Shown here: piece after piece, positions 8,027 to 22,530 of the stretch
Layout of the letters: every line of letters begins with the position of its first letter
How positions within the stretch are numbered: the first letter of the stretch is position 1
Made by a program: the position numbers and the translations under genes
Notes under the pieces: generated by a model
What the model was told of the DNA's origin: nothing
The model's database searches: none
Seen by the model: the letters and a program-made list of their open reading frames with translations, nothing else
DNA from: Spirochaetota bacterium
GTDB taxonomy: Bacteria > Spirochaetota > UBA12135 > COTS27 > JAFLEE01
Direction: 5' to 3'
DNA: 37,053 nt
Assembly: GCA_017302015.1 (NCBI GenBank)
Contig: JAFLEE010000054.1
Coordinates: 1 to 37,053 of the forward strand

Positions 8027-8050
8027 AGCCGTTTTCCGAAGGAGAAAACC

Positions 8051-8548
8051 ATGTTGAAACGCATCCTGCCCCTCGCCCTGGCCTTCGCCGCCTTCTGGTC
8101 GTGCTCCTCGCGCAGCACCGCCATCCCCACGGCGCTCACCGATCTCTCCACCGCCCTCAATACGAGAGACCAGGCCGCCTTCAAGAAACTCATCTGGACC
8201 GGCGCCGCCGACTATACGGCCATCCAAAACGACACCATCACCGTCTCCAACCTGGTGACGGCTGGCTCGTACCGCTACAAGTACTACTTCAGCAACGCCT
8301 CCTACCCGGCAGCGGGCAATAGCCCGGTGACGGCGCGCGTGGAGTGCACGGTGGAAAGCTATGTCGGCGATGCCCTCATCGCCTCCCAAACCTATCCCGC
8401 CAGCGATACCGGCAGCGCCAAATTCGAGTTCGCCAACGGCTCCACCCTCTTCTTCATGGAGGACTGGAAATTCAGTAAGATCTGGCTCCCCCGATACGGC
8501 GACCCCCTCGTGAAAATGCCCGGCTTCATCCAGTTCGTGAAGCCCTGA
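8051..8548 (+). CDS. Small putative lipoprotein of unknown function
   Basis: 165 residues. The N-terminus MLKRILPLALAFAAFWSCSS is a signal peptide ending in a cysteine at residue 18; FWSC is a loose lipobox (Trp at -2 is unusual), acceptable under the relaxed rules known for spirochaetes but uncertain elsewhere. The mature part is a small alpha-plus-beta domain with Tyr/Phe-rich strands (SYRYKYYFSNASYPA) and resembles NTF2/DUF4878-like exported proteins only in size and pattern; I do not recognise a family. A good ribosome site GAAGGAG lies seven bases before the ATG. It is 24 bases after the FecR gene and two bases before the protease gene, so it is probably part of the same envelope operon. 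Confidence 0.72.
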   Translation: MLKRILPLALAFAAFWSCSSRSTAIPTALTDLSTALNTRDQAAFKKLIWTGAADYTAIQNDTITVSNLVTAGSYRYKYYFSNASYPAAGNSPVTARVECTVESYVGDALIASQTYPASDTGSAKFEFANGSTLFFMEDWKFSKIWLPRYGDPLVKMPGFIQFVKP

Positions 8549-18329: not shown

Positions 18330-20549
18330 ATGCCGCGAACCATCCTCGTCGCCCCCGCCGGCCATCAGGTCGGCCTCACCACCATCTGCCTCGGGCTCGT
18401 GCGGGCCCTCGACCGCCAAGGCGTGCGCGTCGCCTTCCTCAAGCCCATCGCCGACCGCGGCGTGGAGCGCTCCATCACGATCCTGCGCGGCGCGGCGCAC
18501 CTGAACCCGCCCGAACCGATCCCCCGGATGCAGGTGGAGGAACTCCTCTCCCACGGCGACGACCAGACCCTCATGGAGAAGGTCGTAGCGGTCTTCGACA
18601 AGGCCGCCCAGGGTGCCGATGTCGTGGTGGTCGAGGGGATGGTGCCCGAGCCCGGCATCGTGTATTCCTCCCGCCTCAACGCCCTCATGCTCAAGGCCCT
18701 CGACGCCGAACTCGTCGTCGTGGCGAGCCCGCGGGGGCATTCGCCGGCCCAGGTCGCCGACTCCATCGCCATCGCCGCCCGGGGCCTCGGCGCCAATACC
18801 GAGGGGCAGAAGGTCGCCGCGGTGGTCAACCGCGTCGCCGCGAGCCCCGAGGAGATCACCGCCACCAAGGAAAAGCCCGCCTGCTACGGCGAGAACAAGG
18901 GCAGTTGCCGGCGCACCCTTTCCGCCGAACTCACCGAGCGCACCCTCGGCCTCACATGCGGCTTTTGCGTGGGGAATGCCGTGGATGAGGGGCGCGTCGC
19001 GAGCTTCGTGGAGGCCCTCGAGAAGGAGAACCTTTTCCCCCTCGGGATCGTCCCGTTCCGCAACGACATGTCCTCCCCCCGGGTGAAGGACCTCGCCCAA
19101 TCCATCCACGCCAAGGTCATCCGCCAAGGCGATTGGGAGAAGCGGCGCGTGACGAGCATCACGCTCTGCGCCATGACCGTCCCCAACGCCCTCAAATCGT
19201 TCAAGCCGGGGACCCTGCTGGTCACCCCCGGCGACCGCCACGACATCATCCTCGCCGCGGCCCTCGCCGTGCTCGGCGGCATGCCGATCGCCGGCCTCCT
19301 CCTCACCGGCGGCATCCCGGCGGAGGAGAACGTGCTCCATCTCTGCGACCAGGCGCTGTCCATGGGCCTGCCGGTCCTCAGCGTAGAGGACGGCAGTTTC
19401 GCCGCCGCCACCGAACTCGCCTCCCTCAACCTCGAGATCCCCGCCGACGATCTCGAGCGCGTCGAGGGCGTGATGAACGCCGTCGCCGACCGCATCGACA
19501 CCGCCTGGGTGAAGGCCGCCGGTTCCGCCGTGCGGGAGCCGCGCTTAAGCCCCCCCGCCTTCCGCCACCACCTCATCGAGCAGGCCCGCGCCGCCAACAA
19601 GCGCATCGTCCTCCCCGAGGGGGACGAGCCGCGCACCGTGCAGGCCGCCGCCATCGTCGCCGAACGGGGGATCGCCCGGCCCGTGCTCCTGGGGGATCCC
19701 AATAAGATCCAGGAGACCGCCAAGAAACTCGGGGTCACGCTCCCGGGGAGCGTGGAGATCATCGACTCATCCAAGGCCATGGACCGCTACGTCGCCTCCC
19801 TCGTGGAGCGCCGCAAGAACAAGGGGATGACCGAGGCCGTGGCCCGCAACGAACTGGGCGACCCCATCATGGTCGGCACGATGATGATGGCCTTAGACGA
19901 GGTGGACGGCCTCGTCAGCGGCGCCGTCCACACCACCGCCCATACCATCCGCCCCGCCCTCCAGATCATCAAAACCTCGCCGGGGTGCAACCTCGTCTCG
20001 AGCGTGTTCTTCATGTGCCTCCCCGACCAGGTCCTGGTCTTCGGCGATTGCGCCGTGAACCCGACCCCCACCGCCGAGCAATTGGCCGACATCGCCATCC
20101 AGAGCGCCGCCTCGGCCCTCGCCTTCGGCATCCCCGCGCGCGTTGCCATGCTCAGCTACTCCACGGGGATGAGCGGCGCCGGCGCCGACGTGGAGAAGGT
20201 GAAGATCGCGACCGAACTCGCCCAGAAACTCCGCCCCGACCTCCTCATCGACGGCCCCCTCCAGTACGACGCCGCCATCATGCCCGACGTGGCCCGCCAG
20301 AAGGCCCCCAAATCGCCGGTGGCCGGCAAGGCGACGGTCTTCATCTTCCCCGACCTCAACACGGGGAACGTGACCTATAAGGCCGTGCAGCGCGCCGCCA
20401 ACGTGGTGAGCATGGGGCCCATGCTCCAGGGCCTGGCGAAACCGGTCAACGACCTCTCCCGCGGCTGCCTCGTGGAGGACATCGTCTTCACCATCGCGCT
20501 CACGGCGATCCAGGCGCAGCAGGCGGGGGCTCGCGCCGGGGCGAAGTAG
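18330..20549 (+). CDS. pta: Phosphate acetyltransferase, long form with N-terminal P-loop-like and DRTGG domains
   Basis: 739 residues. Converts acetyl-CoA and phosphate to acetyl phosphate. Residues 1-265 form the BioD-like domain (APAGHQVGLTT, which lacks the Lys of a true P-loop), about 270-385 the DRTGG domain, and about 407-735 the PTA_PTB catalytic domain (IVLPEGDEPRTVQAA, LPDQVLVFGDCAVNP, SYSTGMSGAG). An insert near 180-215 has four cysteines (Cys185, Cys193, Cys210, Cys213; the last two as CGFC), not usual in the family. The start has a weak site. It ends one base before the first folded repeat. Regulatory N-terminal domains in long Ptas respond to NADH and pyruvate in E. coli; the cysteine insert might add redox or metal control. 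Confidence 0.94.
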   Translation: MPRTILVAPAGHQVGLTTICLGLVRALDRQGVRVAFLKPIADRGVERSITILRGAAHLNPPEPIPRMQVEELLSHGDDQTLMEKVVAVFDKAAQGADVVVVEGMVPEPGIVYSSRLNALMLKALDAELVVVASPRGHSPAQVADSIAIAARGLGANTEGQKVAAVVNRVAASPEEITATKEKPACYGENKGSCRRTLSAELTERTLGLTCGFCVGNAVDEGRVASFVEALEKENLFPLGIVPFRNDMSSPRVKDLAQSIHAKVIRQGDWEKRRVTSITLCAMTVPNALKSFKPGTLLVTPGDRHDIILAAALAVLGGMPIAGLLLTGGIPAEENVLHLCDQALSMGLPVLSVEDGSFAAATELASLNLEIPADDLERVEGVMNAVADRIDTAWVKAAGSAVREPRLSPPAFRHHLIEQARAANKRIVLPEGDEPRTVQAAAIVAERGIARPVLLGDPNKIQETAKKLGVTLPGSVEIIDSSKAMDRYVASLVERRKNKGMTEAVARNELGDPIMVGTMMMALDEVDGLVSGAVHTTAHTIRPALQIIKTSPGCNLVSSVFFMCLPDQVLVFGDCAVNPTPTAEQLADIAIQSAASALAFGIPARVAMLSYSTGMSGAGADVEKVKIATELAQKLRPDLLIDGPLQYDAAIMPDVARQKAPKSPVAGKATVFIFPDLNTGNVTYKAVQRAANVVSMGPMLQGLAKPVNDLSRGCLVEDIVFTIALTAIQAQQAGARAGAK

Positions 20550-20761
20550 GGGGTCTATCCCCGGTCTGGTTGCTTTGCGGACCGGTTTTGATCCCCTGAC
20601 TCTCCGCACCGCTTCGCTCGTCGGCCATCCTGGCCTCCTCGCCCGATTGGCGCAAGCGCGCCATCCGGGCGCGCGTGCGCCAATCGGGCGGCGCTCCGGT
20701 CAGGGGACCAAAACCTCCAAGCAAAATCACCCAGACCATCACCCTTTGTCAAAAGGGTGAT
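20550..20761. repeat. Folded repeat, copy A
   Basis: A 212-base imperfect palindrome beginning right after the pta stop. Nested arms: GGGG-TCTAT-CCCC (20550-20562); GGTCTGG (20563-20569) with CCAGACC (20731-20737); 20584-20600 with 20699-20715 (16 of 17 pairs); 20640-20654 with 20676-20690 (15 of 15); and a perfect outer hairpin ATCACCCTTT-GTCA-AAAGGGTGAT (20738-20761). A one-sided core at 20615-20641 matches copy B, on the opposite strand, at 26 of 27 positions. Confidence 0.8.
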
Positions 20762-20845
20762 GGGGGCGTGGAGAGATTTCCCTCTTCGCTTTTGTCTTTC
20801 TTTACGCCCGCCTGGTCGAATTCTCCGATCGAAAAATCGTTTACG

Positions 20846-21301
20846 TTAAGATTCATCAAATCTTTTGACGAAGGCTGTTTTTTCTTTGGCGGTGAAGCCG
20901 CAATTCTCGTAAAAACCATGAGTGCTTTCCTTCTTGGATCCCGTCATCAGCATGATCTTATACGCGCCCGCGCGGAAGGCGATCTGGCTTGCATGGGACA
21001 TCAACGCCGTGGCATAGCCACGCCCGCGATGGTCCGAGTGGGTCACGACGTTTTCGATCAGGGCATAGGGCTTCATCCCATGGGTGAGGTTCGGAATCAA
21101 AATTAAAGTGACCGAACTCCAGACGCTTCCATCGACTTCCAACACAAGCAGATGGTAATTTTCATTCTGCCGAACCGTTTCAAGGAAAGCCCGCCATAAC
21201 GTGATATCCGTATTCGTGGTCGGGGGCGTTTTCGCCAAGTGCCCGGCATACAATTCCTGAAGCGCTTCTACATCTTTCTCCTCCGCATCCCTAATCAGCA
21301 T
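20846..21301 (-). CDS. GNAT-family N-acetyltransferase
   Basis: 151 residues from the ATG at 21301. Acetyl-CoA binding motif A is VVTHSDHRGRGYATALM (about 79-95; R-G-R-G-Y-A), with motif B HGFYENCGFTAKEKTAF near 127-143. Substrate unknown; small cytosolic enzymes of this kind acetylate amines, antibiotics or proteins. The reading frame continues upstream to a TTG at 21343 but the ATG with GGAAGGTGGGAG directly before it fits the family length. GC is about 45% in the lines I counted, against 63-78% in adjacent genes, which suggests acquisition from elsewhere. It stands alone, flanked by the two inverted folded repeats. Confidence 0.88.
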   Translation of the reverse strand: MLIRDAEEKDVEALQELYAGHLAKTPPTTNTDITLWRAFLETVRQNENYHLLVLEVDGSVWSSVTLILIPNLTHGMKPYALIENVVTHSDHRGRGYATALMSHASQIAFRAGAYKIMLMTGSKKESTHGFYENCGFTAKEKTAFVKRFDES

Positions 21302-21385
21302 GCTCCCACCTTCCAAAACCTTTCCGCAAGTGGAATTATTCAATCTTCTTGAAATGATTGTTATGCCCAGATCCTAACACCCCTT

Positions 21386-21596
21386 TCACCCTTCAGATGA
21401 AGGGTGATGGTCCGGCCGGCTTTGCCTGGGCTTACCGGGTTGGTGACCGGAGCCCCACCCCTTGGTGGCACGCGCCCCAGGAGGGGGCGCTTGCCACCAA
21501 GGGAGCGAGGAGGCCAGGAAGGCCGACGAGCGGAGTGGGGCGGAGCGTTACCAACCCGGTAAGCCCCGCAAGCCGGCCGGACCGGGGTTTGACCCC
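21386..21596. repeat. Folded repeat, copy B (inverted relative to A)
   Basis: A 211-base palindromic element. Arms: hairpin TCACCCTTC-AGAT-GAAGGGTGA (21386-21407); 21409-21422 with 21570-21583 (14 of 14); 21428-21444 with 21550-21566 (17 of 17); 21459-21470 with 21492-21503 (12 of 12); GCGCCCC (21472-21478) with GGGGCGC (21484-21490); and GGGG-TTTGA-CCCC (21584-21596). The core at 21506-21532 is the complement of the copy A core. The arms differ in sequence from copy A but keep the same layout. Confidence 0.8.
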
Positions 21597-21597
21597 G

Positions 21598-21673
21598 CCT
21601 AGTGTCGCCAGGCGCACGCCGATCGCGGCATCCTGCCGCCGCGTGCTTGTCGGCGACCTAGTGTCGCCAGGCG
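21598..21673. repeat. 17-base direct repeat around a hairpin at the sucD end
   Basis: CCTAGTGTCGCCAGGCG occurs at 21598-21614 and again at 21657-21673; the second copy contains the sucD stop codon and its last codons. The 42 bases between fold imperfectly, with GCGGCA-TCC-TGCCGC at the tip and GTCGCC/GGCGAC outer arms. It may be the sucD terminator fold, or a duplication made when the neighbouring repeat element arrived. Confidence 0.55.
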
Positions 21674-22530
21674 GCCAGCAGCGTTTTGCCCATTTCGGCG
21701 GGGCTGCGGGCGACCTTGATGCCGGCGGCCTCGAGGCAGTCGATTTTTTCCTGGGCGGTGCCCTTGCCGCCGCTGATGATGGCGCCGGCATGGCCCATGC
21801 GTTTGCCCTTGGGGGCGGCCTGGCCGGCGATGAACGCGGCGACCGGCTTCTTCATTTCGCGCTTCACGAACGCGGCGGCTTCCTCTTCCGCCGAGCCGCC
21901 GATCTCGCCGATCATGATCACGGCTTCCGTCGCCGCATCCCGGTTGAAGGCGTCGAGGACGTCGATGAAATTGGTGCCGTTGATGGGGTCGCCGCCGATG
22001 CCGACGCAGGTCGTCTGCCCGACGCCTGCCTGGGTGAGTTGGAAGACAGCCTCGTAGGTGAGCGTGCCCGAACGGGAGATGACCCCGATGGGGCCCTTCT
22101 TATGGATGGGGCCGGGCATGATGCCGATCTTGCATTCGCCGGGGGTGATGATGCCGGGGCAATTGGGGCCGATGAGTCGCGTTTTCTTGCCCGCCAGCGC
22201 GGCCTTCACCCGGAGCATATCCAGCACGGGGATGCCCTCGGTGATGCAGGCGACGAGTTCGATGCCCGCCTCGACCGCCTCGAGGATGGCGTCGGCCGCG
22301 AAGGGCGGCGGCACGAAGATCATGGAGGCGTTGCAGCCGGTCTTCTCCCGCGCCTCGCGCACGCTGTCGAAGACGGGGAAGCCCTCGTGGACCAGGCCTC
22401 CGCGGCCGGGGGTGACCCCGCCGACGACTTGGGTTCCGTAGTCGCGGCAGCCCTTAGAGTGGAAGGTGCCCTGGCTCCCGGTGAGCCCCTGGCAGATGAG
22501 TTTGGTGCTTTTGTCGATCCAGATGGACAT
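21658..22530 (-). CDS. sucD: Succinyl-CoA synthetase alpha subunit
   Basis: 290 residues. Binds CoA and carries the phosphohistidine: His247 in [12 protein letters not shown] is the active-site residue; the N-terminal Rossmann part has [19 protein letters not shown] (about 15-33) and [17 protein letters not shown] (about 120-136). With SucC it makes succinate, CoA and NTP from succinyl-CoA, or the reverse. Length is as usual (about 290). It begins one base after the sucC stop codon, so translation is coupled. The last codons and stop are repeated 59 bases downstream. Confidence 0.96.

Follow-up and report, generated by a model that had tools for sequence, protein, structure and literature searches.

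A narrowly distributed palindromic repeat family, conserved in shape and found at stop codons in a Spirochaetota genome

Introduction

In a 37,053-nt contig from a Spirochaetota bacterium (JAFLEE010000054.1, assembly GCA_017302015.1), the whole of which we refer to as the window, two folded sequences lie in opposite orientations on either side of a lone acetyltransferase gene. An initial annotation of this DNA took the arrangement for a mobile cassette or for a structured RNA or single-stranded DNA element. The locus thus raises the question of whether the two copies, called A and B here, are the paired ends of a unit that carries the gene between them, or whether each has its own reason to be where it is. 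We consider it probable, at roughly 60%, that A and B are members of a dispersed family of palindromic repeats of ~215 nt, of the REP/BIME/MITE kind. As a whole, our findings are best read as a new variety of such repeats: a narrowly distributed, structure-conserved, REP/MITE-like palindromic family, seen in one bacterial genome.

Results

Two copies of one repeat at the pta-sucD locus

Copy A (20550..20766, plus strand) starts directly after the stop codon TAG (20547-20549) of pta, the phosphate acetyltransferase gene upstream of it (18330..20549, plus strand). Its conserved core (20615..20641, plus strand), CGCTCGTCGGCC-ATCCT-GGCCTCCTCG, forms a side hairpin in a junction. It also contains a long apical hairpin (20640..20690, plus strand) with 23-bp arms, the conserved tip CAAGCGC...GCGCGTG and an A-G mismatch common to all copies, and a 3' hairpin (20736..20763, plus strand; ATCACCCTTTGTCAAAAGGGTGAT) with no T-run after it. 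Copy B (21380..21596, minus strand) lies 3' of sucD, the succinyl-CoA ligase alpha subunit gene (21658..22530, minus strand), and its conserved 3' end, GTTAGGATC, reaches 21370. The corresponding parts of copy B, all on the minus strand, are the conserved core CGCTCGTCGGCC-TTCCT-GGCCTCCTCG (21505..21531), the long apical hairpin with 20-bp arms (21459..21503) and the 3' hairpin TCACCCTTCATCTGAAGGGTGA (21387..21408). The opposite orientations given in the initial annotation are thus correct, and its 27-base core with 26 identical positions is the best ungapped 27-mer between A and B (26/27), compared with 16-20 identities in 20 random pairs of segments from the window.

Copy B is separated from the sucD stop codon by a 59-bp duplication: the interval 21598..21673 (minus strand) contains CCTAGTGTCGCCAGGCG as two perfect 17-bp copies at a distance of 59 bp, placed round a small GC-rich hairpin with the loop AGGAT. 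The sequence enclosed by this direct repeat is single-copy in the genome. The arrangement has the look of a duplication, or of an insertion, by which copy B was moved off the stop codon, and we infer that the 17-bp sequence adjoining copy B marks the older sucD-B junction.

Further copies in the same genome

A and B do not stand alone: searched as DNA, their own genome gave additional copies on contig C133 (copies C and D, in tandem) and on contig C24 (copy E), and a matching 3' end on contig C26 (F). A covariance model of the central part of the repeat, a search that the initial annotation had recommended for this genome and its relatives, added a full copy, G, on contig C53 and a diverged copy, H, on contig C81. 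Copy G lacks the primary-sequence core, with a core stem GGCGACC...GGTCGCC in place of GGCC...GGCC; that a model of sequence plus shape finds a copy missed by the sequence search supports conservation of the shape. Two low-scoring matches of the same model were set aside on examination: there is no such element at the one on C97, and the one on C121 is a 60-bp array.

The genome thus holds a minimum of five intact copies (A, B, C, E and G), together with two that are partial and one that has diverged. This total of about eight is low, and is a lower bound, because the genome is a 93%-complete draft in 165 contigs, some of which end in the repeat. It excludes the possibility, raised in the initial annotation, that no other copies exist. 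C and D form a near-identical tandem pair with a shared AT-rich spacer at the end of C133 (L017:1-445), and F occupies the end of C26 (L019:1-100); the tandem and the F end show local amplification at a contig break, probably at one locus.

Beyond this genome, the core pattern had no match in 392 other sampled genomes of the phylum, and the covariance model had none in the 59 of these on which it was run. A distant blastn search of plasmids and phages gave no match to the repeat, and patterns for the apical tip and the array unit gave 0 matches in viral contigs. The core pattern matched viral contigs four times, twice in apparent coding sequence and twice in repeats resembling CGTC-tagged REPs, none of them a full element. 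The literature, searched with strings of the repeat sequence, returned unrelated papers only.

The fold is conserved while the stems vary

The shape common to A and B consists of a base, CCCC/GGGG; a long arm, GGTC.../...GACC; an asymmetric junction bearing the side hairpin CGTC-GGCC-N5-GGCC-TCCTCGC; an apical hairpin; and a separate 3' hairpin, TCACCCTT...AAGGGTGA. The apical tip reads CAAGCGC(G/C)CC-NTCCK-GG(C/G)GCGCGTG, with the A-G mismatch present in 5/5 copies. The ACCCTT/AAGGGT hairpin and the tips described initially are indeed the same in all copies, but the real ends of the repeat lie just outside those first given, at GTCWAACCCC and GGGG(GTTRGGRATC). On the 3' side, GGGG is followed by GTTRGGRATC in B, C, F and G, and partly so in E, which gives the element short, imperfect inverted ends, AACCCC/GGGGTT.

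Against dinucleotide shuffles, the fold has z scores of -9.0 for A and -12.3 for B, and the five intact copies range from -7.5 to -12.3, far beyond chance. Among A, B, C and E, changes on both sides that keep the pairing are found at 27 of 65 pairs; with G included they reach 41 of 80, a number that none of 500 shuffles attained (mean 16.9). When the partner is slid by one base, the paired cells of the five-copy alignment fall from 91% to 50-54%; since this alignment was built by sequence and the structure was derived from it, the paired percentage is somewhat favored, and the count of both-side changes is the safer measure. Identity across the five copies is 0.31 in the lower stem of the apical hairpin (H3) and 0.51 in the stems of the long arm, as opposed to 0.77 in the junction and core, 0.83 in the 3' terminal hairpin, 0.90 in the apical tip and 0.94 in the base. 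The earlier proposal that the fold, and not the sequence of the stems, is what is kept is therefore well borne out, with about half of the pairs changed on both sides and stems at 31-51% identity against 77-94% in tips, junction and ends.

Could such covariation arise without any selection on the fold? Template switching that corrects quasi-palindromes would keep drifting arms complementary by copying one from the other, and the almost purely Watson-Crick nature of the pairs is what one would expect of arms made in this way. This process would, however, not account for the 77-94% conservation of tips, loops, junction and ends where the stems are not conserved, nor for the recurrence of the same mismatch and junction positions in all copies. 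The conservation of these parts beside variable stems implies that the shape is still under the influence of some function or recognition, and we regard template switching as a decidedly improbable explanation for the whole pattern.

Placement at stop codons and the gene between A and B

All five intact copies are on the same strand as their upstream gene and start at its stop codon, within -4 to +7 nt, where the start is taken as the GTC of the 5' end GTCWAACCCC and copy B is measured as it stood before the 59-bp duplication. By this measure, copy A starts at +3 relative to the pta stop codon and copy B at +5 relative to that of sucD; copy C starts at -4 relative to the stop of a Gfo/Idh dehydrogenase gene, whose TAA lies within the element; copy E, at -1, provides the last base of the TAG of an ABC permease gene; and copy G starts at +7 after a GH43-like gene. 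Supposing that elements could land at any position in a gap of ~150 nt and on both strands alike, the chance that all five fall within 10 nt and in sense would, by a rough estimate, be of the order of 10^-6 or below. This strict sense placement is more regular than a randomly inserting element would give and would fit an RNA function too; to that extent it counts against the REP/MITE reading.

Because intact copies each start at the stop of a same-strand upstream gene, A and B are to be seen as the 3' trailers of two convergent genes, pta and sucD. The alternative raised by the initial annotation is a composite cassette in which A and B are the inverted ends that move the enclosed gene as a unit. 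The gene (20846..21301, minus strand; 151 aa from ATG, with a possible TTG start at 21343) encodes an ordinary GNAT acetyltransferase (PF00583, E 1e-15). Its GC content, first put at about 45%, is 50.4%, compared with 69% for pta and 67% for sucD, and the AT-richer stretch, which takes in the gene with its flanks at 40-50% GC, runs from the 3' end of A to that of B, as a cassette would have it. Homologues are patchy in the phylum, being present in 6 of 99 other genomes tested and in none of three order or class relatives, so that a recent acquisition of the gene is plausible, which would suit a cassette as well. However, nothing connects the gene with the repeats: each copy goes with the gene upstream of it, A and B with housekeeping genes, and lone low-GC genes, which the initial annotation had suggested looking for, are not flanked by any other copy. 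In addition, most of the stem sequence is different in A and B, which are thus no recent sister ends. We therefore find the cassette very improbable. With no second gene of this sort flanked by copies, the GNAT gene probably came to lie between A and B through an insertion of its own. Order-level relative G002, the only one at this level found with sucD, has sucCD, with a sucD of 58% identity, and no pta, GNAT gene or repeat beside it.

RNA-level explanations

A different account would have the repeat selected as RNA, as a cis-acting 3'-UTR element that arose, or was copied, at the ends of operons and would serve there as a non-canonical transcription end or as a processing or decay barrier. 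The sense orientation of 5/5 intact copies and their starts at stop codons are what this account predicts, and the strong and kept fold, with its conserved tips and an A-G mismatch in 5/5 copies, would be natural in a functional RNA. On the other side, G-U pairs are scarce, with 2.2% in sense and 2.4% in antisense and hence no difference between the strands; four of the five copies also have the better fold in antisense. Nothing here thus points to a sense RNA; three tRNA controls are equally low in G-U, which makes this count a weak test of RNA versus DNA. The few, strand-equal G-U pairs together with the better antisense fold lean towards selection at the DNA level rather than on RNA, with the low tRNA controls kept in mind. 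Nor does the repeat match an Rfam family at gathering threshold: Rfam 15 gave nothing in the window at gathering score, and at a relaxed threshold the loci of copies A, E and G gave only matches far below gathering scores.

The initial annotation had also allowed that the arms might be independent terminators. In its canonical form, that of a GC-rich hairpin followed by a T-run, this is not supported: no copy has a U-tract after the terminal hairpin, all of them instead going on G-rich, and a terminator scanner returned 9 terminator-like sites versus 8.6 in shuffles. The missing U-tract weighs against the wider 3'-UTR account as well. Taken together, we judge a 3'-UTR RNA element to be unlikely. 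Separately, the loops AGGAT, AGGAG and CGGAA on one strand led us to consider CsrA-type GGA-loop sites; we dropped the idea, as the strand concerned runs antisense to the genes and the core-hairpin loops of C and D are ACGAA and ATGAA.

A second structured repeat

The genome also contains a second, more abundant structured repeat, arranged head to tail in units of ~60 bp, GACAGGATGACAGGAAGTCATTAATCGGTCGCC-GCGCCAGGAGGGCGC-AATCAGGCGACC, with 44 matches. Arrays of these units (L193-L222) are found on contigs C4, C34, C77, C81, C100, C107, C119, C128, C133, C146, C148, C149 and C163. Their stems covary as well (TCGGTCGCC/GGCGACCGA, TCGGACGGC/GCCGTCCGA) while the loops stay ANGAN, and the inner hairpin of the unit resembles the apical tip of the ~215-nt repeat. 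On C34, at about 8030-8180 (L207), units of 20 codons seem to lie in frame inside a glutamine-amidotransferase-like gene, and elsewhere units seem to start at the stop codons of a dapL-like gene (C149, L211) and of genes on C4 (L195) and C119 (L213), all gene names here being assigned by eye. The in-frame units on C34 recall the in-frame palindromic elements of Rickettsia. Diverged copy H of the ~215-nt repeat (C81, L175:2600-2860) is fused to a unit of the 60-bp array; it lies upstream of a pgi-like gene, in an intergenic region of the divergent type. The ~215-nt family and the 60-bp arrays may recombine with each other.

Discussion

Under the reading that we favor, that of a REP/MITE-like repeat family, the following scenario might be considered. 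The family would spread as a non-autonomous DNA element, with the hairpin tips, the junction and the ends recognized by an enzyme, perhaps on single-stranded or extruded DNA. Insertion at or beside a stop codon would be either tolerated or targeted, and insertions at stop codons might survive because they are harmless there. Once transcribed, the repeat would give a very stable 3'-UTR structure. At the locus in the window, A and B would then trail the convergent pta and sucD, the GNAT gene having come in between separately. We infer mobility as such from the dispersal of the copies. The observation in the initial annotation that no transposase is visible is correct, and a search of the 93%-complete genome for Y1_Tnp/RAYT (PF01797) gave 0 matches, where 5 of 14 control genomes were positive, and a gene of this kind could lie in the missing part. 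No consistent target-site duplication was found at the ends of the elements.

A more specific form of this scenario would have a candidate recombinase or transposase recognize the element by its shape and put it, in sense, exactly at stop codons. We hold this to be quite unlikely. If it were true, the repeat would join integron attC sites as a second kind of system that recombines by way of folded single-stranded DNA with variable stems, in this case to disperse 3'-UTR elements in a lineage where no RAYT was detected. Irrespective of these details, a family that combines the core hairpin of CGTC REPs, a kept shape and starts at stop codons narrows the recognition targets of such an enzyme (tips, junction and ends) as well as its site. 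The locus also calls for some caution in general, since inverted folded copies round a low-GC gene can be independent 3' trailers of convergent genes and not a cassette.

The comparison with attC sites deserves to be made in full. These are recombination sites recognized as folded single strands, positioned in sense at the ends of genes, with consensus ends RYYYAAC...GTTRRRY. The repeat resembles them in that its fold is conserved, its stems vary and it stands in sense at stop codons; its ends read AAC...GTT, and copy C begins with GTCTAAC, which fits RYYYAAC. However, this fit is confined to copy C, as the 5' ends of A, B, E and G depart from RYYYAAC, and the 3' ends, GTTAGGA and GTTGGGG, do not fit GTTRRRY. 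The interior of the repeat is strongly conserved, unlike that of attC, and the genes upstream are housekeeping genes. That the repeats are divergent integron-type attC sites is thus extremely unlikely.

Known REP families offer closer parallels to the repeat family. CGTC-tagged REPs, which include Neisseria dRS3 and Rickettsia RPE-4/RPE-6 (Di Nocera et al., 2013, PMC3733652), are found in many phyla without a known transposase and are defined by an unpaired CGTC tag at one end, a stem of 8-9 bp starting with AT pairs, a CCA tail and a length of 20-40 bp (PMC3733652). Known REPs lie <20 bp from the 3' ends of genes and may provide stop codons (PMC3733652), and REPs of E. coli at <=15 nt from the stop codon affect translation (PMC12306157). 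The core of our repeat, TCGTC-GGCC-loop-GGCC-TCCTCGC, matches the inner arm, GATTGCTTCGTCGGCC...GGCCTCCTCGCAATGAC, of CGTC-REP-like repeats, and both kinds of repeat are near gene 3' ends and without a known transposase. The core alone (TCGTCGG...CCTCCTCGC) is present in >119 GTDB contigs of many phyla, and 88 of 127 core matches have the CGTC-REP-like setting GATTGCT-TCGTCGGCC...GGCCTCCTCGC-AATGAC, which we take for the interior arm of CGTC-tagged REPs. The core is likely to be homologous to this arm, convergence on a stable hairpin being possible. Several nearby copies of CCGCTCGTCGGCC(N)GGGCCTCCTCGC are present in other genomes (L143, L146) in contexts unlike those of CGTC REPs, followed by tcacggg or taccgagttgttcggc; these may be additional families based on this core hairpin.

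Unlike CGTC REPs, our repeat is ~215 nt long instead of 20-40, low in copy number and seen in one genome. It ends in GTCWAACCCC...GGGG, with no terminal CGTC, AT-starting stem or CCA tail; its only CGTC is internal, in the core beside the GGCC stem. With the GTAG REPs and REPINs, which are mobilized by RAYT, it has in common that it is palindromic, near stop codons and able to provide a stop codon, but it has no consistent GTAG tag, as GTAG precedes only A and E, where TAG is the stop codon of the gene, and is missing from B, C and G, and no Y1_Tnp/RAYT gene was found in its own genome. Typical REP families have >100 copies. The ~8 copies here differ from this and count against the REP/MITE reading.

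Bacterial MITEs such as ERIC, NEMIS, RUP and RU-1/2/3 measure 70-300 bp (PMC3733652, PMC2229807, PMC2759123), and our repeat is like them in its size of ~215 nt, its lack of coding capacity, its presence in several copies (at least five of them intact) and its transcribable hairpin near coding sequences. It differs in that its stem sequence changes between copies while the shape is kept, and no target duplication or parental IS was seen. MITEs are also expected to have terminal inverted repeats of 15-30 bp, whereas the inverted ends here, AACCCC/GGGGTT, are only 6-10 bp and imperfect. In sum, the repeat works like a REP or MITE, stands outside the definitions of both GTAG and CGTC REPs, and agrees in part with that of MITEs.
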